64,000 nt of DNA from assembly GCA_963965975.1 (NCBI GenBank), contig OZ014413.1, forward strand, positions 6,021,501-6,085,500, written 5' to 3'. The translations under genes and the position numbers were made by a program. The stretch's first letter is position 1. Each line of letters opens with the position of its first letter. Below, one piece after another: positions 34,091 to 62,755 of this stretch. This DNA comes from Xestospongia bergquistia. Lineage: Eukaryota > Porifera > Demospongiae > Haplosclerida > Petrosiidae. The notes under the pieces were generated by a model. That model did no database searches. It was not told where the DNA came from and saw nothing but the letters and a program-made list of their open reading frames with translations.

Positions 34091-34152
34091 CCCTTTTAGC
34101 GTAGATAACTTACATATTGAAGGAAGTGCTTCATGAAAGGTTGAATTTCAGC

Positions 34153-34542
34153 CAGAGGGGTAGGAATGAAGTTTAAGTTGGGGGGCTGACCTTACATTTA
34201 GTTGCGTTATATTATTAAACATCAAAAATGACCCCAAAATTTAATTTGTATGTCATTAAAGGAAGCAAACTCTTTAGTTGTTCCTAATAAGTTCAGTACA
34301 GTCCTTATGTGTATGTAACAGCATGACATGGTTTAGTCATTCTTTGGTCATAGTACTTCATAGGTAATTTTTCAGTCAGCATAAGGTTGAAAATATGCGT
34401 TCCGCTGTAACAGAAGTCATTGGTACAGCCTAATGTGTTATTGTTTACATTGTCTTGAGTGTAAATCAGGGGGGCTTAGCCCCCTGATTTGAAGTTGGGT
34501 GGGGGCTTCAGCCCCCCATGCCCCCCCTTTCCTACCCCTATG
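34153..34542. mobile_element. hAT-type MITE, GC-rich (in unit A)
   Basis: A 390-bp element has inverted ends CAGAGGGGTAGGAA and, on the other strand, CATAGGGGTAGGAA. These agree with the CA-N-A/G-G start of hAT elements. It is flanked by an 8-bp imperfect direct repeat (atttcagc 34145-34152 and attttaac 34543-34550, six of eight identical), the hAT duplication length. The right half holds two strong GC hairpins, 34463-34490 (arms AAATCAGGGGG and CCCCCTGATTT) and 34501-34516 (GGGGGC and GCCCCC), very unlike the AT-rich surroundings. There is no coding capacity. Confidence 0.8.
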
Positions 34543-36390
34543 ATTTTAACATTACAATGTATATGAAAACCTAGGTGTATTCTGAAACATTATTTTTCAG
34601 TTATCATAATCTTTCCCATTTGTGTGATTTTGTCAAGTTTTAAAGAGCTTTTGATTACTTTATTATATGTTAATTATAATATAGCAACTATGAATATTAT
34701 TTTCATGTGATTATGTAGAGAGGATGCGACCAGTGTGGCAATTGACAATAGAGTTTAATCACAATTTCTTGTTTGTAACATTTTTTTAAGGATAATATAT
34801 CCTTAGTTAATTTACTTGAAGCTCTCAGTCAAATTATAAAGAAAAAGCAAATAATCATATGATATAGTATTTGTTAAATGTTTGTGGATGCAAGGTCCTT
34901 TTAGAAAAGTAAAAGATGAAAGTTACTATAACTTCAGAACAAAATATTTCTATGAACGGGCAAACAAATTGATAAAGCAAATACTATAACCTTTGCTCAC
35001 TGAGAGTTGCACGTGAGAATTGTACAAACTTACATAAATATGACTACTAAGAAACTATTAATTGAGTGTCGAGTTGACCATATTAGCAGACAAAACAATC
35101 TCATTAAAATCAATGGTATATCCCAGTGCAATGGTATATCCCAGTGCTGTGTGGTCTTTAGCACTCAAAGTGAAAAAAATCGAATCTTATTAGTAATAAG
35201 TTATTATTATGAATTTAAATTAACACATTGTTTAATTGGCAAGTGGGTTTCTAGATCGAACCTGCCACCAAACTGAGACAAATTGTATTTTAATTTAGAT
35301 CAGTTCTTTATAAATTCATAGTAATAAAATTGAAGTCATGTTGGTGCAAGTAGGTTTTAAATTCAACCAGGTAGGATCACACTCATAACTTTAAGGTGAA
35401 TCATGTGTACTTAGACATGGGATTGATTTTTAATCACATCATGATATACTGACAAACACTAGAATAATGTGTGTGTCATGCGTAAGTGATCATGCACAGA
35501 TGTGTAAATATAAAAAAGCCTATCTTAATTATTACCTCTCTCTTTCTCTCTCTTATTGGTGGCTATTGTAGACTATACATAACCAATAGCATGCACTGTC
35601 ATAAATTTAGATATTTTTGTAGTACTGTTTTATTATGAAATATCTTTAATGCAATTATTGTTTGTAGTGCTATGTATCAAGACCATACAGATAAATCTCT
35701 ATTATCTTTCTCTTTTTTTTAAATTTGTTATACTGTGTTTTATATCTTTAATACTAACAAGTAAACTGAACATTTCTAATTCTCTTAGATACCAAATATA
35801 ACATTAATACAATCACTTGTTAATCATATCAGTGCTACAATGTTGATATTGAGTCCTACTATTCTGTTGTACATGTAGATTACAAAGAAGAGAATTTCTT
35901 TTCATGCAGTGACTAATCATGACAGACATTTAATGGAAACAACTTGATAACAAAACCATCCTTAGTTAAAGAAACATTTGAACAAAAGTAGAAGGTGGGT
36001 GTATAATACCGCTGCTATGCAACAAAAGGCTAAGGATGCACATTAGTCAATGCTATTAAAGGATGGCCTTTTTTCATTATTGTAAGAGTATTAGTAAAAG
36101 ATTTGGTTATTTAAATCATGAATCAGCAAGATCCATAAATCACTTACAAGTGATCCATAAAAAGGTGGACCTTAACATTACATTAGAAACCTAGATACAT
36201 TCTGTAACATGTGTACTTTACAGTTATCATAATCTATCCTATTTGTGTAATTTTTTCAAATTTTAAGAGCTGTTGATTACTCTATATATAATCACAAGAT
36301 GTGCTAATTGTAATATAACAACTATGAATATTATTATCTATGTTCCTATAAATATATAGGAACATATATGTATATATATATATATGTATA

Positions 36391-36392
36391 GA

Positions 36393-36428
<36 letters not shown>

Positions 36429-36447
36429 CAGAGACAGAGACAGAGAG
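36391..36447. repeat. (GA)n-(GACA)n compound microsatellite (unit A)
   Basis: A GA run is followed by repeated gacaga units. Just upstream is a gttcctata/tataggaac palindrome (about 36350-36371) and a TA/TATG tract. The minus-strand 71-codon frame across it is an artefact of the repeat. Confidence 0.95.
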
Positions 36448-39400
36448 GATGCTGTCTCATTATGTATTACTTGTTTACTTAAGTTTGTTGTCTTCATTTG
36501 GAGTATTTGCTTTCATTTCATTAGAAAACAGTACTTTACAGAAATTAATTAGCAGTGAAAGAGTCATAATACTTTCAGTGTAACAAGTACAATGATTCAA
36601 TGATAAGCTAATAATCAATATCAATACAACACATTTTTATAATTGTCTGATACTTTAGTTCAATGATAAAGATTGTGAAGCATATCGGTTTGTTTAGGAA
36701 GTTGTATCACATCATAAATCTTTTACATGTAGAGCAAACAGATATTTAAACAGAAAGGATACTTTTTTAACTTTAATATGGTAAATACTGTATATAACTT
36801 TAGTATACATTTTATTGCTGTATAAATTACTGACTATAGCAGCAACAATTTTGTCAAGTTTATATAAAGACCAGTCGTAATTTATGCTACACTTTCAATT
36901 ACATGAAAATGTGCTGAATTAAATAGGCAACAGAAGTTTTTTTAGACTGATGTAATATATTAAAAACTTTTATTAAAAAAAAATATGCAAGTTATTAATA
37001 GCAACTCTATGAGAGGTGTGGCAATTGACAATATAGTTTAACCACAATTTCTTGTTTGTAACATTTTTTATGGATATTTTTAAAGTTAATTCACTTGATA
37101 CTCACATTCAAATTATAAAGAAAAAGCAAACAATCATATGATATAGTATTTGTGTGTGGATACAAGGACCTTTCAGAAAAAGGAAAAGATGAAAATTATT
37201 ATAACTTCAGAACAAAATTTTTGTATGAATATACATACAGACTGATAGAGCAAGTACTATAACCTTTGCTCACTGAGAGTTGCATGTGAAGATAGTATAA
37301 ACTTACATGAACGTGACTTGTAGGAAACAATTATAATGAATGTCAAGATAAAAAAAAATAATTGTACAGCTTATAGACCATATTTACATATTAGCAAACA
37401 GGACTATCTTATTAAAGATCAATGATATATCCCAGTGCATCTTTCTACCGTGTGGTCTTTAGCACCCAAAGTGAAAAAATCTAAAACCTGTATGGGGCCA
37501 TTAATAACATAGTTTATCCATTACAAATGTGACATAAGGATTTTTTTGGTAGTAACAGTTCTTTAAGGCTATTTGTTAAGTTAAATCAGCTGAAGTAGCA
37601 ACAGAAAATAATTCACAGTCAAATGACAAAGAGCAAGTAAATGATTACGAGAGTTGTTATTGTCCGTCAAATTCACGTGGATGCAAAGATTTAGTAATTT
37701 GTAACTACTGATGAGTTGCTATGATTATAAAGCTATGATTATAAAGTTGCTATGATTATAAAGTTGAAAAAGACTATAAATAATTGTAAAATGTCTAGAA
37801 CACACATTACATATAGTCAATAGACTCATCTTATTATAAATCAATGACATATCCCAGTGCACCTTTGTGTTGTGTGGTCTTTAGCAAAAATTTTTAATTT
37901 TATGACTATGAATTTAAAAATAACATATTGTTTTGTTCCAATTGGGTATTTGCACTCAACTGAAAGAATTCAATTTTTGCTGTTAATTTAGCAGAGGTAA
38001 TATTTTAAATTTGTACCAATGAAACAATTCACTTTGGTGCAAGTGGGTTTTTAATTCAACCAGAGCCATACTCATAGCTGTAGGATGAATCATGTACACT
38101 GAAACGTCTTATTGATTTTTTATCACATCATAATTTACTGACAAATGCTAGGATGATGTATCATGTATCTAAATAATTATACATAGATCTATAATTATAA
38201 ATATTGGCTTGACAGCTAACCAGATGATCATTCTCTCTTTATCTCTGTCTCTCTCTCTCTCTTTAATTTATGGCTATTATAGACTATATATAACCAATGC
38301 CATGCATGCACTGTTATAAACTTAGATATTTTGTAATACTTCTATATTATGAACTATCTTTAATACAGTTATTGTTTGTAGTGCTAAGTATAATAAATAT
38401 CTCTTTTCTTTCATCTTTCTATTATACTATCTTTTATCTCTAATAGTAGTGCAAGTGAATAAAACATTTTCTAATCCTCTTAGATACAGAATATAACATT
38501 AATGAAGTCATGTATTAAACATATCAGTGCTACAATGTTGATATTGAGTGCTATTGTTCCATATACAATAAACTAATTGTTTCCTCATAGTTATTTGCTG
38601 TTGCAGTGATCATTGCAATTTCATGAAAATGTGTTTAATATAATAGTCAACAGAGGTTGTTTCAAAAGTGATGTAATATCATAATATCTATTAAAATATG
38701 CAAATTATAATGGCAGCTATAACATCTGTGGGGCCATTAATAACTTTAATAACATAGTTTAGCCATTGAAGATGTGACATAAGCATTTTTTTTGGTAGTA
38801 ACAGTTCTTTAAAGCTATTTGTTAAGTTAAGTCAGCTGAAGTAGCAACAGAAAATAGCTCACAGTCAAATGACAAAGAGCAAGTAAATGATTACGAGAGT
38901 CATTATTGTCTGTCAAATTCATGTGGATGCAAATATTTAGTAACTTGTAACTACTGATAGTTGCTTTTTGTTAACGTTAATGGAACACATGTATAAACTC
39001 AATTGAACATGACTTGTAAAAAAATGCTATGATTATAAAGTTGAAAAAGACTACAACTAATTGTAAAATGTCTAGAACACACATTACATATGGTCAATAG
39101 ACTCATCTTATTATAAATCAATGACATATCCCAGTGCACCTTCGTGTTGTGTGGTCTTTAGCATCCAGGTGCAAATTTTTAATTTTATGACTATGAATTT
39201 AAAAATAACATATTGTTTTTTTCCAATTGGGTATTTGCACTCAACTGAAAGAATTCAATTTTTGCTGTTAATTTAGCAGAGGTAATATTTAAAATTTGTA
39301 TCAATGAAACAAATCACTTTAGTGTAAGTTGGTTTTTTAATTCAGCCAGAACTATACTCATAGCTGTAGCATGAATCATGAGCACTGAAACATCTCATTG

Positions 39401-40190
39401 ATTTTTTATCACATCATAATTTACTGACAAATGTTAGGATGATGTGTCATGTATCTAAATAATCATACATAGATCTATAATTATAAATATTGACTTGACA
39501 GCTAACCAGATGATCATTCTCTCTCTTTCTCTCTCTCTCTCTCTTTCTCTCTCTTTAATTTATGGCTATTATAGACTATATATAACCAATACCATGCATG
39601 CACTGTTATAAACTTAGATATTTTGTAATACTTCTATATTATGAACTATCTTTAATACAGTTATTGTTTGTAGTGCTAAGTATAATAAATGTCTCTTTTC
39701 TTTCGTCTTTTTGTTATAATGTCTTTTATCTTTAATAGTGCAATTGAATAAAACATTTCCTAATCCAATTAGATACAGAATATAACATTAATGAAGTCAT
39801 GTATTAAACATATCAGTGCTACAATGTTGATATTGAGTGCTATTGTTCTAGCTGTTGCACAATTATGTAGTAGAGAAAAGAATTTCTCTTCATGCAGTGA
39901 CTAAGCCTGACAGACATTTAATGAAACAGAAGTTAGTGAAGAGAAGACCTCAAGCTTCCTTAAAGAACTGTTTGAACAAGAATTAAAGGTGGGTGTTTAA
40001 TGTCTGCTGCTAGGTAATAAAAGCTAAGGATACATTTTAGATAGTGCACTTAAGTCATGACCTATTGATTCATAGTTGTAAGAATATTAATGACAGATTT
40101 AGCTGTTTAAATCATGAATCAGCAAAGCCCCTTTTAGTGTAGATAACTTACATATAGAAGGAAGTGCTTCATAAAAGGTTGAATTTCAGC

Positions 40191-40580
40191 CAGAGGGGTA
40201 GGAATGAAGTTTAAGTTGGGGGGCTGACCTTACATTTAGTTGCGTTATATTATTAAACATCAAAAATAACCCCAAAATTTAATTTGTATGTCATTAAAGG
40301 AAGCAAACTCTTTAGTTGTTCCTAATAAGTTCAGTACAGTCCTTATGTGTATGTAACAGCATGACATGGTTTAGTCATTCTTTGGTCATAGTACTTCATA
40401 GGTAATTTTTCAGTCAGCATAAGGTTGAAAATATGCGTTCCGCTGTAACAGAAGTCATTGGTACAGCCTAATGTGTTATTGTTTACATTGTCTTGAGTGT
40501 AAATCAGGGGGGCTTAGCCCCCTGATTTGAAGTTGGGTGGGGGCTTCAGCCCCCCATGCCCCCCCTTTCCTACCCCTATG
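40191..40580. mobile_element. hAT-type MITE copy carried in unit B
   Basis: Same element and flanks as 34153-34542, duplicated with the surrounding 6-kb unit rather than by independent transposition, since flanking sequence is identical on both sides. Confidence 0.85.
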
Positions 40581-42420
40581 ATTTTAACATTACAATGTAT
40601 ATGAAAACCTAGGTGTATTCTGAAACATTATTTTTCAGTTATCATAATCTTTCCCATTTGTGTGATTTTGTCAAGTTTTAAAGAGCTTTTGATTACTTTA
40701 TTATATGTTAATTATAATATAGCAACTATGAATATTATTTTCATGTGATTATGTAGAGAGGATGCGACCAGTGTGGCAATTGACAATAGAGTTTAACCAC
40801 AATTTCTTGTTTGTAACATTTCTTTAAGGATAATATATCCTTAGTTAATTTACTTGAAGCTCTCAGTCAAATTATAAAGAAAAAGCAAATAATCATATGA
40901 TATAGTATTTGTTAAATGTTTGTGGATGCAAGGTCCTTTTAGAAAAGTAAAAGATGAAAGTTACTATAACTTCAGAACAAAATATTTCTATGAACGGGCA
41001 AACAGATTGATAAAGCAAATACTATAACCTTTGCTCACTGAGAGTTGCACGTGAGAATTGTACAAACTTACATAAATATGACTACTAAGAAACTATTAAT
41101 TGAGTGTCGAGTTGACCATATTAGCAGACAAAACAATCTCATTAAAATCAATGGTATATCCCAGTGCATCTTTGTGCTGTGTGGTCTTTAGCACTCAAAG
41201 TGAAAAAAATCGAATCTTATTAGTAATAAGTTATTATTATGAATTTAAATTAACACATTGTTTAATTGGCAAGTGGGTTTCTAGATCGAACCTGCCACCA
41301 AACTGAGACAAATTGTATTTTAATTTAGATCAGTTCTTTATAAATTCATAGTAATAAAATTGAAGTCATGTTGGTGCAAGTAGGTTTTGAATTCAACCAG
41401 GTAGGATCACACTCATAACTTTAAGGTGAATCATGTGTACTTAGACATGGGATTGATTTTTAATCACATCATGATATACTGACAAACACTAGAATAATGT
41501 GTGTGTCATGCGTAAGTGATCATGCACAGATGTGTAAATATAAAAACGCCTATCTTAATTATTACCTCTCTCTCTCTCTCTCTTATTTGTGGCTATTGTA
41601 GACTATACATAACCAATAGCATGCACTGTCATGAATTTAGATATTTTTGTAGTACTGTTTTATTATGAAATATCTTTAATGCAATTATTGTTTGTAGTGC
41701 TATGTATCAAGACCATACAGATAAATCTCTATTATCTTTCTCTTTTTTTTAAATTTGTTATACTGTGTTTTATATCTTTAATACTAACAAGTAAACTGAA
41801 CATTTCTAATTCTCTTAGATACCAAATATAACATTAATACAATCACTTGTTAATCATATCAGTGCTACAATGTTGATATTGAGTCCTACTATTCTGTTGT
41901 ACATGTAGATTACAAAGAAGAGAATTTCTTTTCATGCAGTGACTAATCATGACAGACATTTAATGGAAACAACTTGATAACAAAACCATCCTTAGTTAAA
42001 GAAACATTTGAACAAAAGTAGAAGGTGGGTGTATAATACCGCTGCTATGCAACAAAAGGCTAAGGATGCACATTAGTCAATGCTATTAAAGGATGGCCTT
42101 TTTTCATAATTGTAAGAGTATTAGTAAAAGATTTGGTTATTTAAATCATGAATCAGCAAGATCCATAAATCACTTACAAGTGATCCATAAAAAGGTGGAC
42201 CTTAACATTACATTAGAAACCTAGATACATTCTGTAACATGTGTACTTTACAGTTATCATAATCTATCCTATTTGTGTAATTTTTTCAAATTTTAAGAGC
42301 TGTTGATTACTCTATATATAATCACAAGATGTGCTAATTGTAATATAACAACTATGAATATTATTATCTATGTTCCTATAAATATATAGGAACATATATG
42401 TATATATATATATATGTATA

Positions 42421-42422
42421 GA

Positions 42423-42458
<36 letters not shown>

Positions 42459-42477
42459 CAGAGACAGAGACAGAGAG
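42421..42477. repeat. (GA)n-(GACA)n compound microsatellite (unit B)
   Basis: Copy of 36391-36447 with no visible length change, which is unusual for such a repeat unless the duplication is extremely young. Confidence 0.95.
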
Positions 42478-45400
42478 GATGCTGTCTCATTATGTATTAC
42501 TTGTTTACTTAAGTTTGTTGTCTTCATTTGGAGTATTTGCTTTCATTTCATTAGAAAACAGTACTTTACAGAAATTAATTAGCAGTGAAAGAGTCATAAT
42601 ACTTTCAGTGTAACAAGTACAATGATTCAATGATAAGCTAATAATCAATATCAATACAACACATTTTTATAATTGTCTGATACTTTAGTTCAATGATAAA
42701 GATTGTGAAGCATATCGGTTTGTTTAGGAAGTTGTATCACATCATAAATCTTTTACATGTAGAGCAAACAGATATTTAAACAGAAAGGATACTTTTTTAA
42801 CTTTAATATGGTAAATACTGTATATAACTTTAGTATACATTTTATTGCTGTATAAATTACTGACTATAGCAGCAACAATTTTGTCAAGTTTATATAAAGA
42901 CCAGTCGTAATTTATGCTACACTTTCAATTACATGAAAATGTGCTGAATTAAATAGGCAACAGAAGTTTTTTTAGACTGATGTAATATATTAAAAACTTT
43001 TATTAAAAAAAAATATGCAAGTTATTAATAGCAACTCTATGAGAGGTGTGGCAATTGACAATATAGTTTAACCACAATTTCTTGTTTGTAACATTTTTTA
43101 TGGATATTTTTAAAGTTAATTCACTTGATACTCACATTCAAATTATAAAGAAAAAGCAAACAATCATATGATATAGTATTTGTGTGTGGATACAAGGACC
43201 TTTCAGAAAAAGGAAAAGATGAAAATTATTATAACTTCAGAACAAAATTTTTGTATGAATATACATACAGACTGATAGAGCAAGTACTATAACCTTTGCT
43301 CACTGAGAGTTGCATGTGAAGATAGTATAAACTTACATGAACGTGACTTGTAGGAAACAATTATAATGAATGTCAAGATAAAAAAAAATAATTGTACAGC
43401 TTATAGACCATATTTACATATTAGCAAACAGGACTATCTTATTAAAGATCAATGATATATCCCAGTGCATCTTTCTACCGTGTGGTCTTTAGCACCCAAA
43501 GTGAAAAAATCTAAAACCTGTATGGGGCCATTAATAACATAGTTTATCCATTACAAATGTGACATAAGGATTTTTTTGGTAGTAACAGTTCTTTAAGGCT
43601 ATTTGTTAAGTTAAATCAGCTGAAGTAGCAACAGAAAATAATTCACAGTCAAATGACAAAGAGCAAGTAAATGATTACGAGAGTTGTTATTGTCCGTCAA
43701 ATTCACGTGGATGCAAAGATTTAGTAATTTGTAACTACTGATGAGTTGCTATGATTATAAAGCTATGATTATAAAGTTGCTATGATTATAAAGTTGAAAA
43801 AGACTATAAATAATTGTAAAATGTCTAGAACACACATTACATATAGTCAATAGACTCATCTTATTATAAATCAATGACATATCCCAGTGCACCTTTGTGT
43901 TGTGTGGTCTTTAGCAAAAATTTTTAATTTTATGACTATGAATTTAAAAATAACATATTGTTTTGTTCCAATTGGGTATTTGCACTCAACTGAAAGAATT
44001 CAATTTTTGCTGTTAATTTAGCAGAGGTAATATTTTAAATTTGTACCAATGAAACAATTCACTTTGGTGCAAGTGGGTTTTTAATTCAACCAGAGCCATA
44101 CTCATAGCTGTAGGATGAATCATGTACACTGAAACGTCTTATTGATTTTTTATCACATCATAATTTACTGACAAATGCTAGGATGATGTATCATGTATCT
44201 AAATAATTATACATAGATCTATAATTATAAATATTGGCTTGACAGCTAACCAGATGATCATTCTCTCTTTATCTCTGTCTCTCTCTCTCTCTTTAATTTA
44301 TGGCTATTATAGACTATATATAACCAATGCCATGCATGCACTGTTATAAACTTAGATATTTTGTAATACTTCTATATTATGAACTATCTTTAATACAGTT
44401 ATTGTTTGTAGTGCTAAGTATAATAAATATCTCTTTTCTTTCATCTTTCTATTATACTATCTTTTATCTCTAATAGTAGTGCAAGTGAATAAAACATTTT
44501 CTAATCCTCTTAGATACAGAATATAACATTAATGAAGTCATGTATTAAACATATCAGTGCTACAATGTTGATATTGAGTGCTATTGTTCCATATACAATA
44601 AACTAATTGTTTCCTCATAGTTATTTGCTGTTGCAGTGATCATTGCAATTTCATGAAAATGTGTTTAATATAATAGTCAACAGAGGTTGTTTCAAAAGTG
44701 ATGTAATATCATAATATCTATTAAAATATGCAAATTATAATGGCAGCTATAACATCTGTGGGGCCATTAATAACTTTAATAACATAGTTTAGCCATTGAA
44801 GATGTGACATAAGCATTTTTTTTGGTAGTAACAGTTCTTTAAAGCTATTTGTTAAGTTAAGTCAGCTGAAGTAGCAACAGAAAATAGCTCACAGTCAAAT
44901 GACAAAGAGCAAGTAAATGATTACGAGAGTCATTATTGTCTGTCAAATTCATGTGGATGCAAATATTTAGTAACTTGTAACTACTGATAGTTGCTTTTTG
45001 TTAACGTTAATGGAACACATGTATAAACTCAATTGAACATGACTTGTAAAAAAATGCTATGATTATAAAGTTGAAAAAGACTACAACTAATTGTAAAATG
45101 TCTAGAACACACATTACATATGGTCAATAGACTCATCTTATTATAAATCAATGACATATCCCAGTGCACCTTCGTGTTGTGTGGTCTTTAGCATCCAGGT
45201 GCAAATTTTTAATTTTATGACTATGAATTTAAAAATAACATATTGTTTTTTTCCAATTGGGTATTTGCACTCAACTGAAAGAATTCAATTTTTGCTGTTA
45301 ATTTAGCAGAGGTAATATTTAAAATTTGTATCAATGAAACAAATCACTTTAGTGTAAGTTGGTTTTTTAATTCAGCCAGAACTATACTCATAGCTGTAGC

Positions 45401-45668
45401 ATGAATCATGAGCACTGAAACATCTCATTGATTTTTTATCACATCATAATCAGCAAGATCCATAAATCACTTACAAGTGATCCATAAAAAGGTGGACCTT
45501 AACATTACATTAGAAACCTAGATGCATTCTGTAACATGTGTACTTTACAGTTATCATAATCTATCCTATTTGTGTAATTTTTTCAAATTTTAAGAGCTGT
45601 TGATTACTCTATATATAATCACAAGATGTGCTAATTGTAATATAACAACTATGAATATTATTATCTAT

Positions 45669-49670: not shown

Positions 49671-49957
49671 ATACGCGCAGTATGGCAAGCTATCAGTAAC
49701 AAATCTAAGAGTTACATTCTGGCTTTAAAATACGTACATAAGGTGCTGAGCTTCCATCGTTCTGTAAGCTCTATGTTACAGTGTGCCATACAGCTTAACT
49801 CTCCCTATAATCTTCGTACAACAGGGCAATACAAAGTCTCTTATCGCCTGACGTTTCTGCATCTGGTTGATAGATCTATATTATATTGAACAAGATGTAT
49901 TGCTAATGGCTCACCGTAATTTTGATTGTCTCTCTAAGCTGCAGTATGACAGGGCTA

Positions 49958-51989
49958 TGTCACGAAAAATTTGGTCCGGGTGCAAAATTTGGACCTAGGA
50001 CCAAATTTGGCAACAAAAAGTCTGCAAAATTAATTCCGCCTTGCAATATTTGGACCCAGGCGTCTCAGACTGTATAATTTGGTAAAGAGAAGTGGAATTT
50101 GACACATACAAATCGATTAGTCACTTCTTATGTTGTGTGTACTTAAATGAAGAGCTTTAGCCACTTGGTGAAGTTTTCAAAGTGTCAAAAAAGCGATATC
50201 ACAGCAGAGAGAAGATTGGAACCTGACAGAGGAAGCAATAAACTACATAGAAAATGGAACTTATGGCTCAGATTGTTCTGCTAACAGGAAAAGAAGCATT
50301 AGGAAAAGGCTGGCAAACTAGCAATGAAAGAAGGAGAAGTGTACTATGAGAAGAAACCAGGACAAGTTTGTATTATTTTCTCAGTTTCTTTTTTTATTGT
50401 CTTAAAATAATTTATGATAATATTTCTGTTTTCAGTGGGTGAGGTATGTACAATCAAAGACTGAAAAGTTACGAATTGTGTGTTGTTGCCATGCTGACCA
50501 ACATCTGGACATCTTGGTGAAAAAAAGACCTATAATAGAGTTATTGAGAGATTTACATGGAAGGGAGTCATAAAAGATGTGAAGCAAGTTGTAAATGGTG
50601 TGTTTTTCTTAATTATAAGTTGTACTGTGACTTATTATAGGTATCTGCATGTGATGAGTGTCAAAGAATATGGAAGAAGTTGTTGGTAAGCTTACAGTGG
50701 AATGATTATGTGTCTTTAAGAAACTCAAGGAAAATATTTGTAAAGCCCAGAGTAAGCAAAAAAGGCTTAATGACCAAAAACATGCCATTCCCATTGCATT
50801 TGAGGTATGCATTTTGTGTATGCAAACAGTGGACTATCTTTACTATTATTAGGTTGCTGCAAATGTACTTATGAAAGACTTCAGAAGAAAAATGAGGAAG
50901 AGAGGGAAGCTAGATTATAAGTGGAAAGGACCTTATGAAATAACAGATTGTCTTGGGAAAGGTTTCTATAGGCTAAAACTTGGAGGTAATAAAGATTGCC
51001 ATGTTTGAACTTATTGACTTTTTTGTATTAGGTCAGGACAATGTCATTGTTAAAAGAGTGAATGGAGCTCATCTAAAGCTATATAAAATGCCAGTTGAAG
51101 GTTCATCATCAAGTCTTTCCAATTCAATTCCATCAAGTACTTCACATCAATGAAAATCACTGGGTAACTGCTAGTAATATTGGTTGTCCTGTCGCGATGT
51201 ACTAGACTATCATTTAGAGCCAAGGCACAGATTGCAGCAATGCTGTTCACAGACCAACCTGAAATAACTGTGCGTTTTCAGCCAGTTCATCTACAACATG
51301 GTACAAATGATTGTGGGTTTTTTCATTGGCTTTTGCCACATCCCTTTGTGGTGGGCAAACCCCAACACAAATAACCTACATTCAACATCAATTGAGGGAC
51401 CACCTTTGTCACTGTCTTGAAAATAAGACAATTACCCCTTTCCCTTGCCAGCAGCAAAAAAAGAAAGCAAAGCAATATGTTGCTAATATGAAATTCGAAG
51501 TATACTGCAAGTGTCGTCAACCAGAAGAGGGTAGAATGATTGAGTACAAATACTGCAAAGAATGGTATCATGAAGATTGTGTTGAAGTCCCAAGTGTCAT
51601 TTGGCAGACCAAGAGGCACATATTATGGATATGTGACACTTAAGCTTGTATAAAAACTCTTAATTAATTGTAACATTACCTATATAATATAACCTATAAT
51701 TACATAACTTGTACTGACTTTATTTAGATTAAATGCTAAATCTTATTATAATCAGATCAAATTGGACTTGGGACCAAGTCTTGCTGCCAAAAGTAGACCT
51801 AGGTCCAAATTTTGTTGCAAAAAGTGGACTTATCTCTAGAAACAAATTTTGCAGTATAGGTCCAAATTAGGCAGCAAAATTTGGTCCTAGGTCCAAATTT
51901 AACTTGCATAAATTGGACCTAGGTCCAATTTTTGCATGCAAAATTTGGTCCTAGGTCCAATTTTAACTAGGAACAAATTTGCCATGACA
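49958..51989 (+). mobile_element. Ginger1-like DNA transposon with TIRs and GCTA target duplication
   Basis: The 2,032-bp element has inverted ends of about 52 bp. The left begins TGTCACGAAAAATTTGG; the right, on the minus strand, begins TGTCATGGCAAATTTG. Both continue into GGACCTAGGACCAAATTT. The 4-bp direct repeat GCTA flanks it at 49954-49957 and 51990-51993. Ginger elements are cut-and-paste transposons with a Gypsy-type integrase, a GPY/F module and a C-terminal Ulp1 or OTU protease, TG-type ends and 4-bp duplications; the internal remnants here match that order. The right subterminal region holds several CCTAGG-centred palindromes (51796, 51883, 51915, 51947), candidate transposase sites. 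The DDE core is deleted, so the copy is non-autonomous. Confidence 0.8.
50210..51643 (+). pseudogene. Ginger-like integrase / Ulp1 protease / PHD protein remnant
   Basis: Spliced pieces are visible. 50210-50370 (EEAINYIENGTYG, KEGEVYYEKKPGQ) is followed by an intron to the acceptor at 50436. Next comes the integrase zinc finger, with CCHAD...SGH and KKTYNRVIERFTWKGVIKDV, and after another intron VSACDECQRIWKKL. The DDE core is missing. 50731-50804 reads KKLKENICKAQSKQKRLND. 50853-50986 carries the GPY module LDYKWKGPYEITDCLGKG, and 51033 onward VKRVNGAHLKLYKMP. A Ulp1/C48-type protease region follows, with NHW (51152-51163) and NDCG (Cys codon 51311-51313) and, in the next frame, VFSLAFATSLCGG. 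A PHD finger ends it (YCKCRQPEEGRMIE, CKEWYHEDC). Several frameshifts and stops make it a pseudogene. Confidence 0.75.
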
Positions 51990-52828
51990 GCTATACTTAA
52001 TCTTATGCCGCCTGACGTTTCTACATGGGTTCAAGCGTATGTCAATACTATAATAAAAGGTAGCCGACAACGGCAAATCCTTTCGCTATGCGTAGCCAAT
52101 AAATTAACAAAGAAAAAAACAGAAACTGTTCCCAAACTCTAAACGTACTTTTAGTGTAGGACTAACGTTGTAAAATAAAAAAAAAGTAGAAAAAACAGAG
52201 TAATGGCTATATTAACAATGATTTTTTCCAATCACAGCAGGTCCTTACATTGTCCTATCCTGTAATGTCTTTTCAATATTAGTATTTATGGCAATCAAAG
52301 TATGTGAGTGTGTAGTGAGTATTTAACCCTTTGTCTACCTCATTTTTGAGATTCATAAGCTTAACGACGTATTCGTGCCCCACAAGCCATACGTATATAA
52401 TATAATTCATGGCATGGTAAATAATCATGATAAGTGATAAAATGGTAGAGTCATCTGTGATACAAAATCTGGAATTAGTGTTTACAAGTGACGATTAAGA
52501 ACTCTGGCCTTACAAAAGGCAAGATCAATTGAGTGTCACCCATATTAACATCACATGATAAGGAGCACCATATTAGGAGCTCTCTATAGAAGTAAATAAA
52601 TAAAAGGTATTGTATGTAAAGATATATGCTACATTCTATGACAAATGATTGGAGAAGAGTACATCCCTTTGTATAATGAGCACATTTTCGCTAATCAGTT
52701 CTGCTCTTGTTCATAAACTACCACACTACGCAGTAGAAAGTAGGTTATTTTCTTGATACAGGAAAAAATTGCTAATCATAACAATAAAATTTAATGTTAT
52801 TATCACTGTGACATGTTTGGCATCTAAA

Positions 52829-52862
52829 TTGTCTCTAGACACCTTGGGGTGTCTAGAGACAT
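52829..52862. repeat. Strong hairpin (tgtctctagacacc)
   Basis: ATTGTCTCTAGACACC pairs with the following GGGTGTCTAGAGACAT-like arm over at least 14 bp with a tiny loop. The arm itself contains the 6-bp palindrome TCTAGA. A second copy is at about 57491-57524. Confidence 0.75.
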
Positions 52863-53086
52863 CTGAAAAAAATGATAGTGTTTGAGGATGTGTAAACCCA
52901 TGTTATATATATTTATCCTTTAACAACTCTAAATGTTACAAATAGTAGGTAGTTCATTTATTTTTTTTAATGTTTAATTATTTTTTTGAGATGATGTTAT
53001 CATAATAAAAATGTATATCAGTTTATATTGGTCATAAATAAAGAAGGTACACTTTATTGTCATTGTTTTACAAAGTGTTTTATATA

Positions 53087-53163
53087 TGTGTGTGTGTGTA
53101 AGTATGTATGTATGTACGTATGTATGCATGTATGTATGTATGCATACATATAATATATATATA

Positions 53164-53215
<52 letters not shown>
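53087..53215. repeat. (TG)n/(TATG)n and (TTA)n microsatellites
   Basis: Adjacent tgtgtg, tatgtatg and ttattatta tracts, about 16 TTA units. The identical cluster is at 57749-57877. The 76-codon frame across it is an artefact. Confidence 0.95.
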
Positions 53216-53217
<2 letters not shown>

Positions 53218-53312
53218 ATACATTTGTTCGATAATAATATAACTGATATATGTATACTTATATCATATGTTCTTTTAGAGACCAAATCATTAGTACCAAC
53301 ACTCTCCTGGCA

Positions 53313-56014
53313 ATGACAGCTCAAATTACAGTAAAAAACTATAATAGGGTTGTAAGTCTACCAATAAATATTACAATATACTATATGCATCTGTGTAAAT
53401 AAAAAGAAACATTGTATATTATTGTTAAGTATGGTAGCACTAGCACTATATGTAGTAACAGGCACAGGAAAATGACTGTCACATTTCATCTATTACACTA
53501 CTGTTAAAGTTCCCTCATAGGGTTATTTTAGAAGCTACTTGGCATTATTTATTATGTTAATCTTAGTTATTATCTAACAGTAGTAGTAGTTTCTTCAATA
53601 ATGTTATAATGTATTACTAAAGAGGAAAACTGCTAAACAGTCAAATTGTTTATTATCTTGTCTTTTACATACTAGTACAATATTTTGTGGAATTTTTGAC
53701 TTGTGTATGATTTAATTTTTTAAATTTAATGACTTGTTTTCCTATTATATAGGACTATGAACATAAAGAGTCTCTTGTGTTGAGGCGTTTAGACAGAAAA
53801 AAACAAATCTTTTCGAAAGGAGCAGACATCAAACAATGCTTTCTTTCTGTAAGACCCTATTATTAATTTACAATTATTTGCATTTACTAACTTAACAGTT
53901 AATTCAAAGCAATTATATAGATTTAATGAGTATTAATTTGTTTTTCCCACACCTAGACATTAATTTAAAATTAAATATTTGCATAATTTGTTAATTATTA
54001 CTATAATTGTTAAAGCTGCTAATTAGTATTCATAATTAAAAACATACATGACCTTTACATGTGGTATTTTTAATATTGTCTTATAATTTAATTGAATGAA
54101 ATCTATTATATTGTGTGATAGTAATGTCATAATTAATGATACATGTCAATGTAAAGTAATAACTTGTATTGTGTATACACATGTTACAGAGATGTAGTTG
54201 GATTTTCTTTATTTTACATATAGGATAATCCATTTATAATATGCGCAACACCTCATACTATAGCTTACATCTATGATCATAACACAATAGTGCAATTCTT
54301 GGAAAATGCAGGTGCTACTCCTGATTATGTAAGTATAATTATAGATGTATATAATTGAGGTCAATGTTTAGAATAACTCAAGTATATGATTAGTACATTG
54401 ATATTATGTGCATGTACATATACTTATTTTCAACTGCAAGCATTTTTCGATTTTGTTGGTCACTCATAAGCACAAGATATTGTTGTGATTCTTGATTGAG
54501 TCACCTCTCAAACTCAGACACCACTATGTCAATAACTTGAAAATAAAATGCTACATGGAAATTTTCCTCATTTCCAGATACTCTGCGCAGATTGTGGTAA
54601 TTTTCATTCATTCGTCGGCTAATTTTTCTTGCATGTGGATCTATAACTTCAATGTCTAGGTCTTCAGCTAACTGCATGGCTTCATCATAAAACATCTTGA
54701 ATGTTGCTTCATTTCTCATAGTTTGAAGTGTTTTAACATTTATAATGTAACGCATTAAAAGTTGTGATTGTTCCTCAGAGTCTGTGTCTTTGCCACTAGA
54801 ACTTGAAGGGAAGTACCTCAGAATGTCATTCATTTCTACTCGAGGATCGAGAGCATTAATTACAATAGTATTAATTTTTGAACAGGGAGCCTGTGCTCCC
54901 AAGGCCACCCTAAGTCCTCCATTCCAAGTCCATTTAATAGATAATTAATTATTTTGACGTTTACTGGCTGTGTTTCAATGTTTTGTTTTTCTCAACATTA
55001 TTTTTCTTTTAATATTTGTTTCTATAGCTAGTAAATATTATTAAATAATTCATTTTAATCAGGTCATGTAACACTAAGGTACAACAGTGTTACCAATTGA
55101 TTATATATATAGTTTAGAAAGAAATGTTGAGAGTTTGACTACACTTACATTTATTTGTTTACAAGTGTTAGAATTAAAAATAATTAGGCCAGTAATGCTA
55201 CTAGCTTTGATGTTATGTTGGAATGAACATTTGTTACCTTAACTTAACTGGGTTAGAAGACTAAATTGAGTCACATCAACAATACTAGGAACTGTTTATA
55301 CAACAAACGTAGTATTGATTTTGATGGAGAAACTGTAGCTTTGTCATTTCATTACATGTAGAATAGTAACTAAACTAAACACTTGTATATACTGTTGTAT
55401 TTATTATGATGTATATTGTTGTGATTTCTTAGAGTGAAATTATGTTAGTAGCTGCCTATGAAGGACAGTTAGATAAAGTGGAAGAAGCTATAAACAAAAA
55501 TGCTTATATTAATGCAAAAGATCCAGATGTAAGTTATACCTTATTATAGTAAATGACTCTTTTGTAGAAAGGTTAGCTTACCAATTTCACAATTATAATT
55601 TTATTTATAACAATATAATATTTTCATGAGAAAGACAGATATACAAGACTTAGCACTTAAAATGTAAAATCTTTTGATTTTCATATAATACTTAAAATGT
55701 AAGGAGCTACACTGTATATCTCATGACATTGTAATACAGGAATCCATATGATGATGAAAACATTAGGAAGTTTGTGTGCAGACACCAGCATCAGGTTGTT
55801 ATACTCAAAACCATAGTGTAGTATAAGAATCAACAATTCAATATACAGTTTTACTATCTTTTTAAAATAGTAATAGTCATATTTCTATTTGCATTCTTTG
55901 CTGTTTTATTATCAGAATCTGTGTACAGCTTTGCATTATGCTGTATATAATGCATACATTGAGATAGTTAAGTATCTCCTACAATCAAATGCAGATCCCA
56001 ATATTTGTAACAAG
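53313..56014 (+). CDS. Ankyrin-repeat protein gene, 5' exons (tandem copy 1)
   Basis: Exons inferred from splice sites and phase. A candidate first exon 53313-53351 (MTAQITVKNYNRV, donor gtaagt) is followed by 53753-53848 (DYEHKESLVLRRLDRKK and on), 54224-54328 (ends ENAGATPDY), 55433-55528 (EIMLVAAYEGQLDKVEEAIN) and 55916-56014 (CTALHYAVYNAYIEIVKYLL, SNADPNICNK). All internal exons start after AG, end before GT, and are phase 0 and 32-35 codons long, one ankyrin-like unit each; the last two fit the ankyrin consensus well, the first two only loosely. Ankyrin arrays bind protein partners; no other domain shows the function. No stop or 3' exon is seen before copy 2 begins, so this copy either is an incomplete duplicate or splices into copy 2. 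Confidence 0.7.
54478..54931 (-). pseudogene. hAT transposase fragment, antisense in an ankyrin intron (copy 1)
   Basis: The minus-strand frame has no ATG; it is open from about 54931, with the longest stretch 54908-54501 (135 codons), to a TGA near 54497. Recognisable parts are KTLQTMRNEATFKMFYDEAM, QLAEDLDIEVIDPHARK and FHVAFYFQVIDIVVSEFER. These resemble the central helical region of hAT/ZMYM1-like transposases, where a Q/R-x-R-x-N segment is followed by YY-x-x-x-x-x-P-x-LD. Upstream catalytic and downstream dimerisation parts are missing. It lies wholly within the intron between the third and fourth ankyrin exons. Confidence 0.5.
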
Positions 56015-57748
56015 GTCAGTGTGTATTGTGTATAGTTTGTATTTCACTTGTTGTCTCTATTACATGTACATATATATAGTACTACCTGTCTAATAGGTCA
56101 GGATAGAGATCAAATTCTAATGTAAAAGAGGACCCTTTTCACTCTATCACAATTTCTAATGAAATCTAAATGTGTGAGATAAAAGATGCTTCTTTTAATT
56201 TCTGATGATATATGACCAATAGTTAATATGACCTGAAAAGCAAGCTTTAAGATACCCAATTATACCAAAATTATTCTTATTTGAGTAATGCTAACATTTG
56301 AAAATATTTTGATAGTCACAACCACATTTTTCAATGTTAAAACTGTTTTCTAAACTTGTTGGCATATAATTTTGGATTGTCTTATTAAATGTCTATCATC
56401 TTTTCTCTTATTATTTGTATATGAGATGTATATAAACTTTGCAACTGGAAATGTTGCATGTAGTCCTCATCAACACATATATAATACCTTGGGTTACATA
56501 GTGACTATACCACTTTTAAGAATAATTAATAGGTTAAAAGAAACATATATTATAATAAGTCTTTAATACATAAATTGGACCTAGGACCAAATTTTGCATG
56601 CAAAAATTGGACCTAGGTCCAATTTTAACTAGGAACAAATTTGCCATGACAGCTATACTTAATCTTATGCCGCCTGACGTTTCTACATGGGTTCAAGCGT
56701 ATGTCAATACTATAATAAAAGGTAGCCGACAACGGCAAATCCTTTCGCTATGCGTAGCCAATAAATTAACAAAGAAAAAAACAGAAACTGTTCCCAAACT
56801 CTAAACGTACTTTTAGTGTAGGACTAACGTTGTAAAATAAAAAAAAAGTAGAAAAAACAGAGTAATGGCTATATTAACAATGATTTTTTCCAATCACAGC
56901 AGGTCCTTACATTGTCCTATCCTGTAATGTCTTTTCAATATTAGTATTTATGGCAATCAAAGTATGTGAGTGTGTAGTGAGTATTTAACCCTTTGTCTAC
57001 CTCATTTTTGAGATTCATAAGCTTAACGACGTATTCGTGCCCCACAAGCCATACGTATATAATATAATTCATGGCATGGTAAATAATCATGATAAGTGAT
57101 AAAATGGTAGAGTCATCTGTGATACAAAATCTGGAATTAGTGTTTACAAGTGACGATTAAGAACTCTGGCCTTACAAAAGGCAAGATCAATTGAGTGTCA
57201 CCCATATTAACATCACATGATAAGGAGCACCATATTAGGAGCTCTCTATAGAAGTAAATAAATAAAAGGTATTGTATGTAAAGATATATGCTACATTCTA
57301 TGACAAATGATTGGAGAAGAGTACATCCCTTTGTATAATGAGCACATTTTCGCTAATCAGTTCTGCTCTTGTTCATAAACTACCACACTACGCAGTAGAA
57401 AGTAGGTTATTTTCTTGATACAGGAAAAAATTGCTAATCATAACAATAAAATTTAATGTTATTATCACTGTGACATGTTTGGCATCTAAATTGTCTCTAG
57501 ACACCTTGGGGTGTCTAGAGACATCTGAAAAAAATGATAGTGTTTGAGGATGTGTAAACCCATGTTATATATATTTATCCTTTAACAACTCTAAATGTTA
57601 CAAATAGTAGGTAGTTCATTTATTTTTTTTAATGTTTAATTATTTTTTTGAGATGATGTTATCATAATAAAAATGTATATCAGTTTATATTGGTCATAAA
57701 TAAAGAAGGTACACTTTATTGTCATTGTTTTACAAAGTGTTTTATATA

Positions 57749-57825
57749 TGTGTGTGTGTGTAAGTATGTATGTATGTACGTATGTATGCATGTATGTATG
57801 TATGCATACATATAATATATATATA

Positions 57826-57877
<52 letters not shown>
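57749..57877. repeat. (TG)n/(TATG)n and (TTA)n microsatellites (copy 2)
   Basis: Same lengths as at 53087-53215, supporting a very young duplication or an assembly duplication. Confidence 0.95.
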
Positions 57878-57879
<2 letters not shown>

Positions 57880-57974
57880 ATACATTTGTTCGATAATAAT
57901 ATAACTGATATATGTATACTTATATCATATGTTCTTTTAGAGACCAAATCATTAGTACCAACACTCTCCTGGCA

Positions 57975-60900
57975 ATGACAGCTCAAATTACAGTAAAAAA
58001 CTATAATAGGGTTGTAAGTCTACCAATAAATATTACAATATACTATATGCATCTGTGTAAATAAAAAGAAACATTGTATATTATTGTTAAGTATGGTAGC
58101 ACTAGCACTATATGTAGTAACAGGCACAGGAAAATGACTGTCACATTTCATCTATTACACTACTGTTAAAGTTCCCTCATAGGGTTATTTTAGAAGCTAC
58201 TTGGCATTATTTATTATGTTAATCTTAGTTATTATCTAACAGTAGTAGTAGTTTCTTCAATAATGTTATAATGTATTACTAAAGAGGAAAACTGCTAAAC
58301 AGTCAAATTGTTTATTATCTTGTCTTTTACATACTAGTACAATATTTTGTGGAATTTTTGACTTGTGTATGATTTAATTTTTTAAATTTAATGACTTGTT
58401 TTCCTATTATATAGGACTATGAACATAAAGAGTCTCTTGTGTTGAGGCGTTTAGACAGAAAAAAACAAATCTTTTCGAAAGGAGCAGACATCAAACAATG
58501 CTTTCTTTCTGTAAGACCCTATTATTAATTTACAATTATTTGCATTTACTAACTTAACAGTTAATTCAAAGCAATTATATAGATTTAATGAGTATTAATT
58601 TGTTTTTCCCACACCTAGACATTAATTTAAAATTAAATATTTGCATAATTTGTTAATTATTACTATAATTGTTAAAGCTGCTAATTAGTATTCATAATTA
58701 AAAACATACATGACCTTTACATGTGGTATTTTTAATATTGTCTTATAATTTAATTGAATGAAATCTATTATATTGTGTGATAGTAATGTCATAATTAATG
58801 ATACATGTCAATGTAAAGTAATAACTTGTATTGTGTATACACATGTTACAGAGATGTAGTTGGATTTTCTTTATTTTACATATAGGATAATCCATTTATA
58901 ATATGCGCAACACCTCATACTATAGCTTACATCTATGATCATAACACAATAGTGCAATTCTTGGAAAATGCAGGTGCTACTCCTGATTATGTAAGTATAA
59001 TTATAGATGTATATAATTGAGGTCAATGTTTAGAATAACTCAAGTATATGATTAGTACATTGATATTATGTGCATGTACATATACTTATTTTCAACTGCA
59101 AGCATTTTTCGATTTTGTTGGTCACTCATAAGCACAAGATATTGTTGTGATTCTTGATTGAGTCACCTCTCAAACTCAGACACCATTATGTCAATAACTT
59201 GAAAATAAAATGCTACATGGAAATTTTCCTCATTTCCAGATACTCTGCGCAGATTGTGGTAATTTTCATTCATTCGTCGGCTAATTTTTCTTGCATGTGG
59301 ATCTATAACTTCAATGTCTAGGTCTTCAGCTAACTGCATGGCTTCATCATAAAACATCTTGAATGTTGCTTCATTTCTCATAGTTTGAAGTGTTTTAACA
59401 TTTATAATGTAACGCATTAAAAGTTGTGATTGTTCCTCAGAGTCTGTGTCTTTGCCACTAGAACTTGAAGGGAAGTACCTCAGAATGTCATTCATTTCTA
59501 CTCGAGGATCGAGAGCATTAATTACAATAGTATTAATTTTTGAACAGGGAGCCTGTGCTCCCAAGGCCACCCTAAGTCCTCCATTCCAAGTCCATTTAAT
59601 AGATAATTAATTATTTTGACGTTTACTGGCTGTGTTTCAATGTTTTGTTTTTCTCAACATTATTTTTCTTTTAATATTTGTTTCTATAGCTAGTAAATAT
59701 TATTAAATAATTCATTTTAATCAGGTCATGTAACACTAAGGTACAACAGTGTTACCAATTGATTATATATATAGTTTAGAAAGAAATGTTGAGAGTTTGA
59801 CTACACTTACATTTATTTGTTTACAAGTGTTAGAATTAAAAATAATTAGGCCAGTAATGCTACTAGCTTTGATGTTATGTTGGAATGAACATTTGTTACC
59901 TTAACTTAACTGGGTTAGAAGACTAAATTGAGTCACATCAACAATACTAGGAACTGTTTATACAACAAACGTAGTATTGATTTTGATGGAGAAACTGTAG
60001 CTTTGTCATTTCATTACATGTAGAATAGTAACTAAACTAAACACTTGTATATACTGTTGTATTTATTATGATGTATATTGTTGTGATTTCTTAGAGTGAA
60101 ATTATGTTAGTAGCTGCCTATGAAGGACAGTTAGATAAAGTGGAAGAAGCTATAAACAAAAATGCTTATATTAATGCAAAAGATCCAGATGTAAGTTATA
60201 CCTTATTATAGTAAATGACTCTTTTGTAGAAAGGTTAGCTTACCAATTTCACAATTATAATTTTATTTATAACAATATAATATTTTCATGAGAAAGACAG
60301 ATATACAAGACTTAGCACTTAAAATGTAAAATCTTTTGATTTTCATATAATACTTAAAATGTAAGGAGCTACACTGTATATCTCATGACATTGTAATACA
60401 GGAATCCATATGATGATGAAAACATTAGGAAGTTTGTGTGCAGACACCAGCATCAGGTTGTTATACTCAAAACCATAGTGTAGTATAAGAATCAACAATT
60501 CAATATACAGTTTTACTATCTTTTTAAAATAGTAATAGTCATATTTCTATTTGCATTCTTTGCTGTTTTATTATCAGAATCTGTGTACAGCTTTGCATTA
60601 TGCTGTATATAATGCATACATTGAGATAGTTAAGTATCTCCTACAATCAAATGCAGATCCCAATATTTGTAACAAGGTCAGTGTGTATTGTGTATAGTTT
60701 GTATTTCACTTGTTGTCTCTATTACATGTACATATATATAGTACTACCTGTCTAATAGGTCAGGATAGAGATCAAATTCTAATGTAAAAGAGGACCCTTT
60801 TCACTCTATCACAATTTCTAATGAAATCTAAATGTGTGAGATAAAAGATGCTTCTTTTAATTTCTGATGATATATGACCAATAGTTAATATGACCTGAAA

Positions 60901-62755
60901 AGCAAGCTTTAAGATACCCAATTATACCAAAATTATTCTTATTTGAGTAATGCTAACATTTGAAAATATTTTGATAGTCACAACCACATTTTTCAATGTT
61001 AAAACTGTTTTCTAAACTTGTTGGCATATAATTTTGGATTGTCTTATTAAATGTCTATCATCTTTTCTCTTATTATTTGTATATGAGATGTATATAAACT
61101 TTGCAACTGGAAATGTTGCATGTAGTCCTCATCAACACATATATAATACCTTGGGTTACATAGTGACTATACCACTTTTAAGAATAATTAATAGGTTAAA
61201 AGAAACATATATTATAATAAGTCTTTAATACAGTACTTGTTAAAAAGTGTTAGTCTCTTTTGACAACATCATGAATTGATAATGATAATATGTTTAAGTC
61301 TACTGATGCAAATCAGGACAGTGTTATTCATTAATTGTACCAGTGGTTTGATTACTGCTTCTTGTTTGGCTTTACTACTTGACACATTTATTATTAGATG
61401 AAATGAGGTAACAATGGCAAGATGTTTGTAATTTTAAGTACTATTTATGTATGTTGCATCTTGAATCCATAATGATAAAAGGTCACTATCATTTTCTCAC
61501 AACTATTTCAAACTCTAGTTTTCTATAACAGTGAAAACAACTGCAACACCAGCAAAACCAAAACTATCTTATGACAGTTTTCACAATGTTAACATTTTTG
61601 TAATTTAATATTTGATCTACTTTGTGATAGATATGTATTGTAATACTGTGATATTATACAGCAACTGTTAAAATATAATGCAGAATCCCACTTTTGTGAC
61701 ATATGTTATGTGTAGAGATTACTCCGTGTTATTAGATTTAAATCAGTATTTACTAGATATAATATATTATTGGTATGATTATTACAGCTTTCAATGACTA
61801 CTCATTTGTTATAAAAGGATTAGCATGCATAATTAGTGGCAGTTACAAGTAGGTGTAGCCTGTTATCACAGTACATATCCCTGAAGCGTATTTGTATTCA
61901 CATAGGTGCCACTCTGTTCTGATGATATAGAGAATGGTATTATCAGCATTATGTTCTACTTAAACTGTTACTAGCTATCTCCAAAACCAAACACTAAACT
62001 CCATATTATGCATAATGAGTCCAGCCTATGACTGTTATATTCAGTTGTAGTAAAGGTACTATTATATATCCTTAATCTAGTAAACTGTGTTAATAACTCT
62101 TGGACAATAGCATTCCAATTTATGATATATATATCACTGTATTATATATTAATGTTGGAGCTTCATGCTTTATTGCAGTGGCTTAACATTTAATTTTTCA
62201 GTTATATTAAGTTTGTGGATCAAAAAATTAATGTGTGTTTTTTTTGTGAGATTAGGCACTTTAGTAGAACTTTCACATTATACAATGTAGAACATAAATG
62301 AGTTCTTACATGAGAAAAACCTAATCAATACTAAGATTGTTTGGAACCATGTGTGTATGCATAATATTTCAACATATGTCTGACTTAACTATTTTTAACT
62401 ATTGTTATTATTAAACAGCTCATTTCATTTTGTAGTGGGGACATAGTCCGCTTTATCTAGCATTATGGAGAAGTCAACATGACATTTTTAATCTTTTATG
62501 TTCCTTTGCAGCAAGAGATATGGAACAAGTTATAACAGTTAGTGATAAATACAATAATATATTTACTACATTGACATAGTGATTATAATATATTATAAGC
62601 ATGATCTAATTATATGTTGGTACATGTCACAGTTATAATTTTTTTTATAGGATTTGTTACTTTTGATTTCAGTTGGAGATGGTGATGTAGAAAATGTAAC
62701 TGTAGCACTTACACAAGGTGCTAATGTTAAAATTATTACTCCTGATCATGACAAG
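57975..62755 (+). CDS. Ankyrin-repeat protein gene (tandem copy 2 plus single-copy exons; 3' end not in window)
   Basis: The same five exons as copy 1 recur at 57975-58013, 58415-58510, 58886-58990, 60095-60190 and 60578-60676. They are followed by single-copy exons 62436-62537 (WGHSPLYLALWRSQHDIFNL and on, donor gttagt) and 62651-62755 (DLLLLISVGDGDVENVTVAL, QGANVKII; donor gttagt). All are phase 0, which allows repeat exons to be gained or skipped without shifting the frame. The new exons look like degenerate ankyrin units. No terminal exon or stop is visible by 64000, so the gene probably continues. Start choice is uncertain: the 13-codon first exon is inferred from an ATG followed by a good donor only. 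Confidence 0.7.
59140..59593 (-). pseudogene. hAT transposase fragment (copy 2)
   Basis: Duplicate of 54478-54931, carried by the 4,662-bp tandem duplication. One base change converts Val to Met near the end (IDIVVSEFER to IDIMVSEFER). Confidence 0.5.
61233..62435. other. Intron / single-copy sequence
   Basis: AT-rich sequence between ankyrin exons; no open frame or repeat recognised. Confidence 0.4.

Follow-up and report, generated by a model that had tools for sequence, protein, structure and literature searches.

Ginger1 elements have been described as DNA transposons that end in terminal inverted repeats (TIRs) of about 40-270 bp with TGTNR termini, carry neither LTRs nor reverse transcriptase, and duplicate 4 bp of the target. 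They code for an integrase composed of an H2C2 finger, a DDE core and a GPY/F module, together with a YPYY region and a C-terminal OTU or Ulp1 protease, accompanied in some of them by a PHD finger. For instance, Ginger1-9_HM from Hydra magnipapillata is listed with 'Ulp1, PHD' (Bao, Kapitonov and Jurka 2010, PMC2836005, Table 1, Figure 1 legend). Among the 112 Hydra Ginger1 elements of the published logo, 75% of the duplications are CCGG and 24% are CCGT/ACGG (PMC2836005). Duplications of 4-6 bp at weak palindromes have also been reported for retroviral integration (PMC4422553).

The DNA analysed here, called the window, is a stretch of 64,000 nt (OZ014413.1, positions 6,021,501-6,085,500, forward strand), and the genome searched for relatives comprises 146.46 Mb in 21 contigs. 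The element under study occupies 49958-51989 (Table 1). The family to which it belongs is referred to as the window family, and L-numbered loci are other places in the genome.

The termini of the element read TGTCACG...CATGACA, with an exact GCTA directly outside both, and its imperfect inverted repeat spans about 60 nt. The terminal 70 nt reach a local inverted-repeat score of 72, while the maximum in 1,000 mononucleotide shuffles is 33. The inverted TGTCA ends and the GCTA on both sides, as originally predicted, are real. When the flanks of the GCTA insertion are joined, ten matches are found in the genome. Three of them correspond to the filled locus together with its tandem duplicate, three others, on contig C6, have 80-83% identity and extend well across the junction, and the remaining four end 3 bases beyond it. 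One aligned related empty site, L102, contains a single 4-mer, CCTA, whereas GCTA is present twice at the filled site, indicating that the window element is an insertion accompanied by a 4-bp duplication.

Table 1. Position of the element and of its recognisable parts (coordinates in the window; L-numbers denote related copies elsewhere in the genome).
Feature	Position	Strand	Basis
Left target-site duplication, GCTA	49954..49957	.	Sequence reading; one 4-mer at a related empty site
Internally deleted Ginger1-like element, 2,032 bp	49958..51989	+	TGTCA...TGACA ends; related copies, 38 loci
Left terminal inverted repeat, imperfect	49958..50019	+	Local inverted-repeat score
Sparser set of CCTAGG-centred palindromes, left end	49967-50060		
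N-terminal exon remnant (YPYY-type region), frame broken	50196..50365	+	By eye, against L010 797-973
Integrase HHCC zinc-finger exon remnants, frame broken	50436..50668	+	Integrase_H2C2; edges by eye against L009
Internal-deletion junction	50668..50668	.	blastn blocks against L009; L009 exon model
GPY/F module exon (WKGPYEITDCLGKGFYRLKL)	50853..50985	+	SH3_Tf2-1, 25.1 bits, under the cut-off of 30
Ulp1-type protease remnant	51140..51400, edges approximate	+	Comparison with L009/L010
C-terminal PHD finger remnant	51506..51637	+	Pfam PHD, 21.4 bits, under the cut-off of 24
Right subterminal array of CCTAGG-centred palindromic units, mostly at 31-32 bp spacing	51771..51964	.	
Right terminal inverted repeat, imperfect	51930..51989	-	Local inverted-repeat score
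Right target-site duplication, GCTA	51990..51993	.	Sequence reading; related empty site

The protein pieces of the window copy lie inside one TIR unit and are collinear with those of fuller copies, as had been predicted for its integrase-finger, GPY, protease and PHD remnants. The exons of the HHCC finger are split by a small intron (approximately 50591-50640), and the Integrase_H2C2 profile scores 35.5 bits on 50498-50689 (Pfam cut-off 25.5). About 760 bp (L009 1216-1975), including all three DDE residues, are missing at the deletion junction. A net 0.44 kb or so of the linker and protease is also absent, the copy being 1,198 bp shorter than L009. Read by eye, the protease remnant keeps a His motif (NHW) and a Cys motif (NDCG) and is devoid of the segment carrying the presumed catalytic Asp; in the PHD finger, one zinc-ligand Cys is replaced by Tyr. 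In the window copy, Pfam gives no match for the protease piece, nor for the 50421-50570 frame alone. The low PHD score is explained by the decay of this copy.

A DNA search of the genome with the element yields at least 156 matching pieces, which were sorted visually into 38 loci and retrieved, the identity of the main matching blocks to the window copy ranging from about 98% down to about 81%. Two fuller copies, L009 (3,230 bp) and L010 (3,641 bp), were read closely, the gene model being based on exon homology. L009 retains the DDE exons, and its exons are joined via at least six introns of 46-61 bp, five of them GT-AG and one with a lost donor, in agreement with the small introns predicted for a Ginger1-like DNA transposon. 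The joined L009 product contains, in this order, HADPTSGH...CDEC, the three residues D (GIDFIG), D (TSDQG) and E (LDERFNQ), and WKGPYE. In the fuller copies, the following exon carries INENHW...FDS...TSDCG and, after it, a PHD finger. The full-length translation check was confined to these two copies and both are interrupted: in L009 the N-terminal frame is shifted and the splice donor lost, and in L010 the DDE exon contains a stop.

Profile searches of the fuller copies support most of these domains. Integrase_H2C2 (62.0 bits) and rve (37.3 bits) score above their Pfam cut-offs in L009, and so does the PHD finger of L009 and L010 (30.8 and 31.7 bits). Peptidase_C48 reaches 24.7 and 23.0 bits in these copies, 2-4 bits over the cut-off of 20.7. 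By contrast, SH3_Tf2-1 stays at 22.4 bits, under its cut-off of 30, and the GPY/F module was recognised by reading WKGPYE directly. The Acetyltransf_14 profile gives a weak match (17.4-17.5 bits, cut-off 24.4). The solved structures closest to the integrase are those of Ty3 (6e-26) and the prototype foamy virus integrase (2e-25). For the C-terminal part there are 29 matches to solved structures up to E 0.01, the top two being PHD fingers, from 'Protein partner of snf' (5e-7) and DIDO1 (1e-6). Since no Ulp1-type protease was recognised among these 29, the protease call depends on the Pfam match and the His/Asp/Cys motifs, and confidence in this putative assignment is modest. The protease Cys is altered in another copy, L043. 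Within-family codon counts, based on few changes, give crude dN/dS values of 0.53, 0.59, 0.72 and 1.59, with little sign of constraint in data too sparse to judge; the comparison of L047 with L051 extends past a frame change near its end. In L014, the 3' part is duplicated in tandem within one element (514-1295 / 1353-2134).

Protein searches of the genome disclose more places carrying the same C-terminal half. Family A (L047, L048 and L051) and family B (L049 and L050) each possess their own TGTCACG-type ends, have the same domain order, and are about 40% identical to the window family in the protease/PHD part. In L047, from family A, PHD (19.5 bits) and Peptidase_C48 (18.8 bits, cut-off 20.7) fall just under their cut-offs, and SH3_Tf2-1 is also under its own. 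Another locus, L052, follows the same protein plan with the DDE region deleted and shows a similar identity (about 40%) in the protease/PHD part; the best of its TIR pairs flanked by matching 4-mers is weak (17/30 bases), and it was left out of the duplication count. In a tree of 17 integrase cores, the window family, A, B and L115 are grouped apart from 13 other host integrases, presumed to be of Gypsy type, with a support of 92/97, which is moderate and not starred. Two Gypsy pieces of the window overlap too little and were omitted from this tree. A scan of viral contigs for relatives of the integrase gave four pattern matches, none of which was confirmed.

The end patterns occur genome-wide at 98 left-type sites and 65 right-type sites, and reversed-pattern controls at none; the left-type pattern, allowing up to two mismatches, also picks up related families. 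Both outer flanks were read for 51 elements, 40 from the window family, nine from A and two from B, including 16 additional window-family pairs and six of family A chosen by eye from the end lists. Exact 4-bp duplications flank 36 of the 51 (28/40, 7/9 and 1/2, respectively), seven further pairs are off by one base and the remaining eight do not match. Mispaired ends, used as a control, match in 65 of 2,550 combinations (2.5%). Among the 51 pairs, L045 and L077/078 share a duplicated flank (both exact) and were counted once, leaving 35 independent duplications; L036 and L037 share another, neither of them matching. Outside the count are the pair of abutting elements of L020, the inner left end of L095, loci whose right end is unclear (L031, L040), loci with one end (L013, L021, L025, L029, L030, L033) and loci that were not entered (L026, L034, L035, L038, L039, L046). 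The two elements in L020 (G000:C7:3594700-3599600) lie tail to tail, with their right ends 3 bp apart.

Of these 35 independent duplications, 28 have G in the first position and 28 have C in the last; both bases are present in 21, and all 35 carry at least one of them. CNNG is found in 0/35, the preceding base is never C, and the following base is never G. GNNC makes up 2.4% of the positions of the window, the 31% G+C stretch from which alone this background was taken, and the binomial probability of 21/35 is 1.6e-25. Family A (seven exact duplications) shares the preference for G first and C last, and the single site of family B is GGCC; the preference thus rests mainly on the window family and A, with B adding one site. 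The target is a loose, weakly palindromic [not C]GNNC[not G] preference. None of the 36 exact duplications is CCGG, CCGT or ACGG, which agrees with the predicted departure from CCGG/CCGT, but the idea of a different 4-bp site falls, because the family has no fixed site. GCTA, considered as such a site, was rejected, being one of many with G first or C last.

A deletion derivative of 1,563 bp is present on two contigs (L041 527-2089 and L042 540-2102). Both copies are identical over their full length and their duplications differ (GTAC and TAGC), which suggests that a copy lacking the DDE core was recently mobilised in trans, gene conversion being the alternative.

Taken together, the window element very probably belongs to a Ginger1-like family of TIR transposons whose gene combines integrase, Ulp1 and PHD domains and which duplicates 4 bp at a relaxed GNNC target. 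The domain architecture, the single insertion unit, the 4-bp duplication and the GNNC preference are apparent from the sequence. The several frames and stops of the window copy could suggest that its protein pieces are unrelated insertions lying together by chance. However, L009, L010 and families A and B, the latter two within TIRs of their own, show the same order, and the frame changes are accounted for by the introns of 46-61 bp and by decay. Given this collinearity in independent copies, separate insertions are rejected in practice, and of all the explanations considered this is the least credible. Hardly more probable is a pol remnant of a Gypsy-type LTR retrotransposon caught between chance inverted repeats. 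In favour of such an origin, the integrase core shares 39-43% identity with the seven closest of the 13 other host integrases sampled, but the integrase tree, with its moderate support, separates it from all 13. Moreover, no reverse transcriptase was detected by Pfam in the nine open frames of L010, which has no long direct terminal repeats either, and the ends, the duplications and the gene travel as one unit in many copies. A trapped Gypsy fragment is therefore also rejected in practice, on account of the shared TIR unit and its duplications.

It is much harder to decide against a standard Ginger1 family similar to Ginger1-9_HM, with CCGG/CCGT as a peculiarity of Hydra and loose targets in Ginger1 generally. 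The domains are identical in kind to those of Ginger1-9_HM, the published logo comes from the Hydra elements only (PMC2836005), and a 2023 paper states no more than '4 bp' for the Ginger1 group (PMC10045372). However, the abstract of Bao et al. speaks of CCGG- or CCGT-specific duplications for Ginger1 (PMC2836005), and neither these sequences (0/36) nor CNNG (0/35) are found here. This possibility is a serious one, with a little less than an even chance of being correct.

In the Ginger1-like family with a GNNC preference, a fuller element measures about 3.2-3.6 kb and apparently codes for one spliced protein, predicted to consist of an N-terminal YPYY-type region, the HHCC finger, the DDE core, GPY/F, the Ulp1-type protease and the PHD finger. 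Integrase multimers may bind the palindromic terminal and subterminal repeats and free the TG...CA ends; these would then be inserted, 4 bp apart on the two strands, into a weakly palindromic target of the form [not C]GNNC[not G]. The likely substrates of the protease are SUMO or ubiquitin-like proteins, which it would cleave off, and H3K4-methylated chromatin is probably what the PHD finger reads.

With respect to the PHD finger, the aromatic cage of KDM7B is formed by Y7, Y14, M20 and W29, and DIDO1, whose cage is YHMW, has nanomolar affinity for an H3K4me3 peptide (PMC10321576). The cage of the element PHD fingers contains Y, M and W in the window family, B and L052, and Y, W and W in A. 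Three of the four cage positions of H3K4me3 readers are thus retained, the second one being different, and this retention makes H3K4-methylation reading, and chromatin tethering by the PHD finger, plausible. A bolder proposal is that this lineage swapped DNA-sequence specificity for chromatin addressing, so that a PHD finger bound to H3K4me3 would tether the integrase to active promoters, leaving the enzyme itself with only a retrovirus-like GNNC preference. This scenario is speculative and rather unlikely. The G+C content of the flanks is 34.1% (18 elements) vs 31.1% for 900-bp pieces of the window, an indirect measure too weak to speak to promoter targeting.

The window also contains other repeated sequences. 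A direct tandem duplication of 4,664 bp (51907-56570 / 56569-61232, 99.9% identity) has its left edge within the right-end palindromes of the element, and is either a recent event or an assembly artefact. This duplication carries the 83-bp 3' tip of the element to 56569..56651 (+), which was considered as a second independent copy and rejected as the edge of the duplication. A second large tandem duplication, of 5.3 kb (34088-39420 / 40126-45450, 99.6% identity), has diverged repeats around it, and at 24544-24910 a unit of about 39 bp recurs in a short tandem array. By eye, the open frames at 14702-17634 (+) and 21559-23794 (-) resemble gag/pol of Gypsy-type LTR elements. A 568-aa open frame (12582-14288), which we take to resemble a membrane transporter, has a diverged partial copy near 26144-26394.

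As for the comparison with known systems, likeness to Ginger1 and to Ginger1-9_HM is judged here from the published description. As in Ginger1-9_HM, a Gypsy-type integrase (H2C2, DDE, GPY/F) is combined in the window family with Ulp1 and PHD in a gene with introns, at least six here vs two in Ginger1-9_HM, and the lengths are similar (3,230-3,641 bp in the fuller copies, 3,758 bp in Ginger1-9_HM). The architecture of integrase, Ulp1 and PHD is already published and is not new, and the listing of Ginger1-9_HM removes the main novelty of the original prediction, in which the PHD finger was regarded as an added feature. Among the papers listed by literature searches, none beyond Bao et al. 2010 was recognised as dealing with Ulp1/PHD in Ginger1 or with its target sequence, nor as describing a GNNC preference of this kind; a description in Repbase only is possible.

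Most of the features that define the Ginger1 group are present. The elements are TIR-ended (51 end pairs), without LTRs or reverse transcriptase in L010; their TGTCA ends fit the TGTNR termini given for the group, and the imperfect TIR of about 60 bp is within the described range. H2C2, DDE and GPY/F occur in the fuller copies, the window copy being devoid of DDE, and L009 and L010 have the C-terminal Ulp1 and PHD domains. Compared by eye with the published description, the YPYY region is an equivocal match, reading Y-G-Y-Y in the window family (L010), Y-P-F-F in A and Y-P-F-L in B. The 4-bp duplication is exact in 36/51 pairs and has one mismatch in seven more. However, the CCGG/CCGT/ACGG duplications of the Hydra Ginger1 group, among which those of Ginger1-9_HM are not given apart, are replaced by a loose GNNC. 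Since the specificity for CCGG or CCGT fails (0/36) and the other tested features hold, with YPYY equivocal, the family is best classified as a Ginger1-like variant rather than as a plain member. Ginger2/Tdd elements share with it the Gypsy-type integrase, the TGTNR ends and a 4-5-bp duplication, but they are described as having no GPY/F, no YPYY and RTATAY as target (PMC2836005), whereas the window family possesses GPY and inserts at GNNC. Gypsy/Ty3 and retroviral integrases share the HHCC finger, the DDE core and the GPY/F module, and the GNNC preference is similar in type to the weak palindromes at which retroviruses integrate (PMC4422553). Unlike Gypsy/Ty3 elements, this is a TIR-ended DNA transposon with protease and PHD, and neither LTRs nor reverse transcriptase were found in L010.

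Apart from target choice, the element type is ordinary. What sets this Ginger1-like lineage apart is a relaxed GNNC preference, unlike that published for Hydra. If the PHD finger does tether the integrase to H3K4me3, it would be a natural counterpart, among DNA transposons, of the chromatin-tethered integration of retroviruses. The set of related integrases within one genome is useful for mapping specificity determinants, and the finding of the same domains with the opposite preference (G..C vs C..G) suggests that target choice can change in the Ginger1 group.
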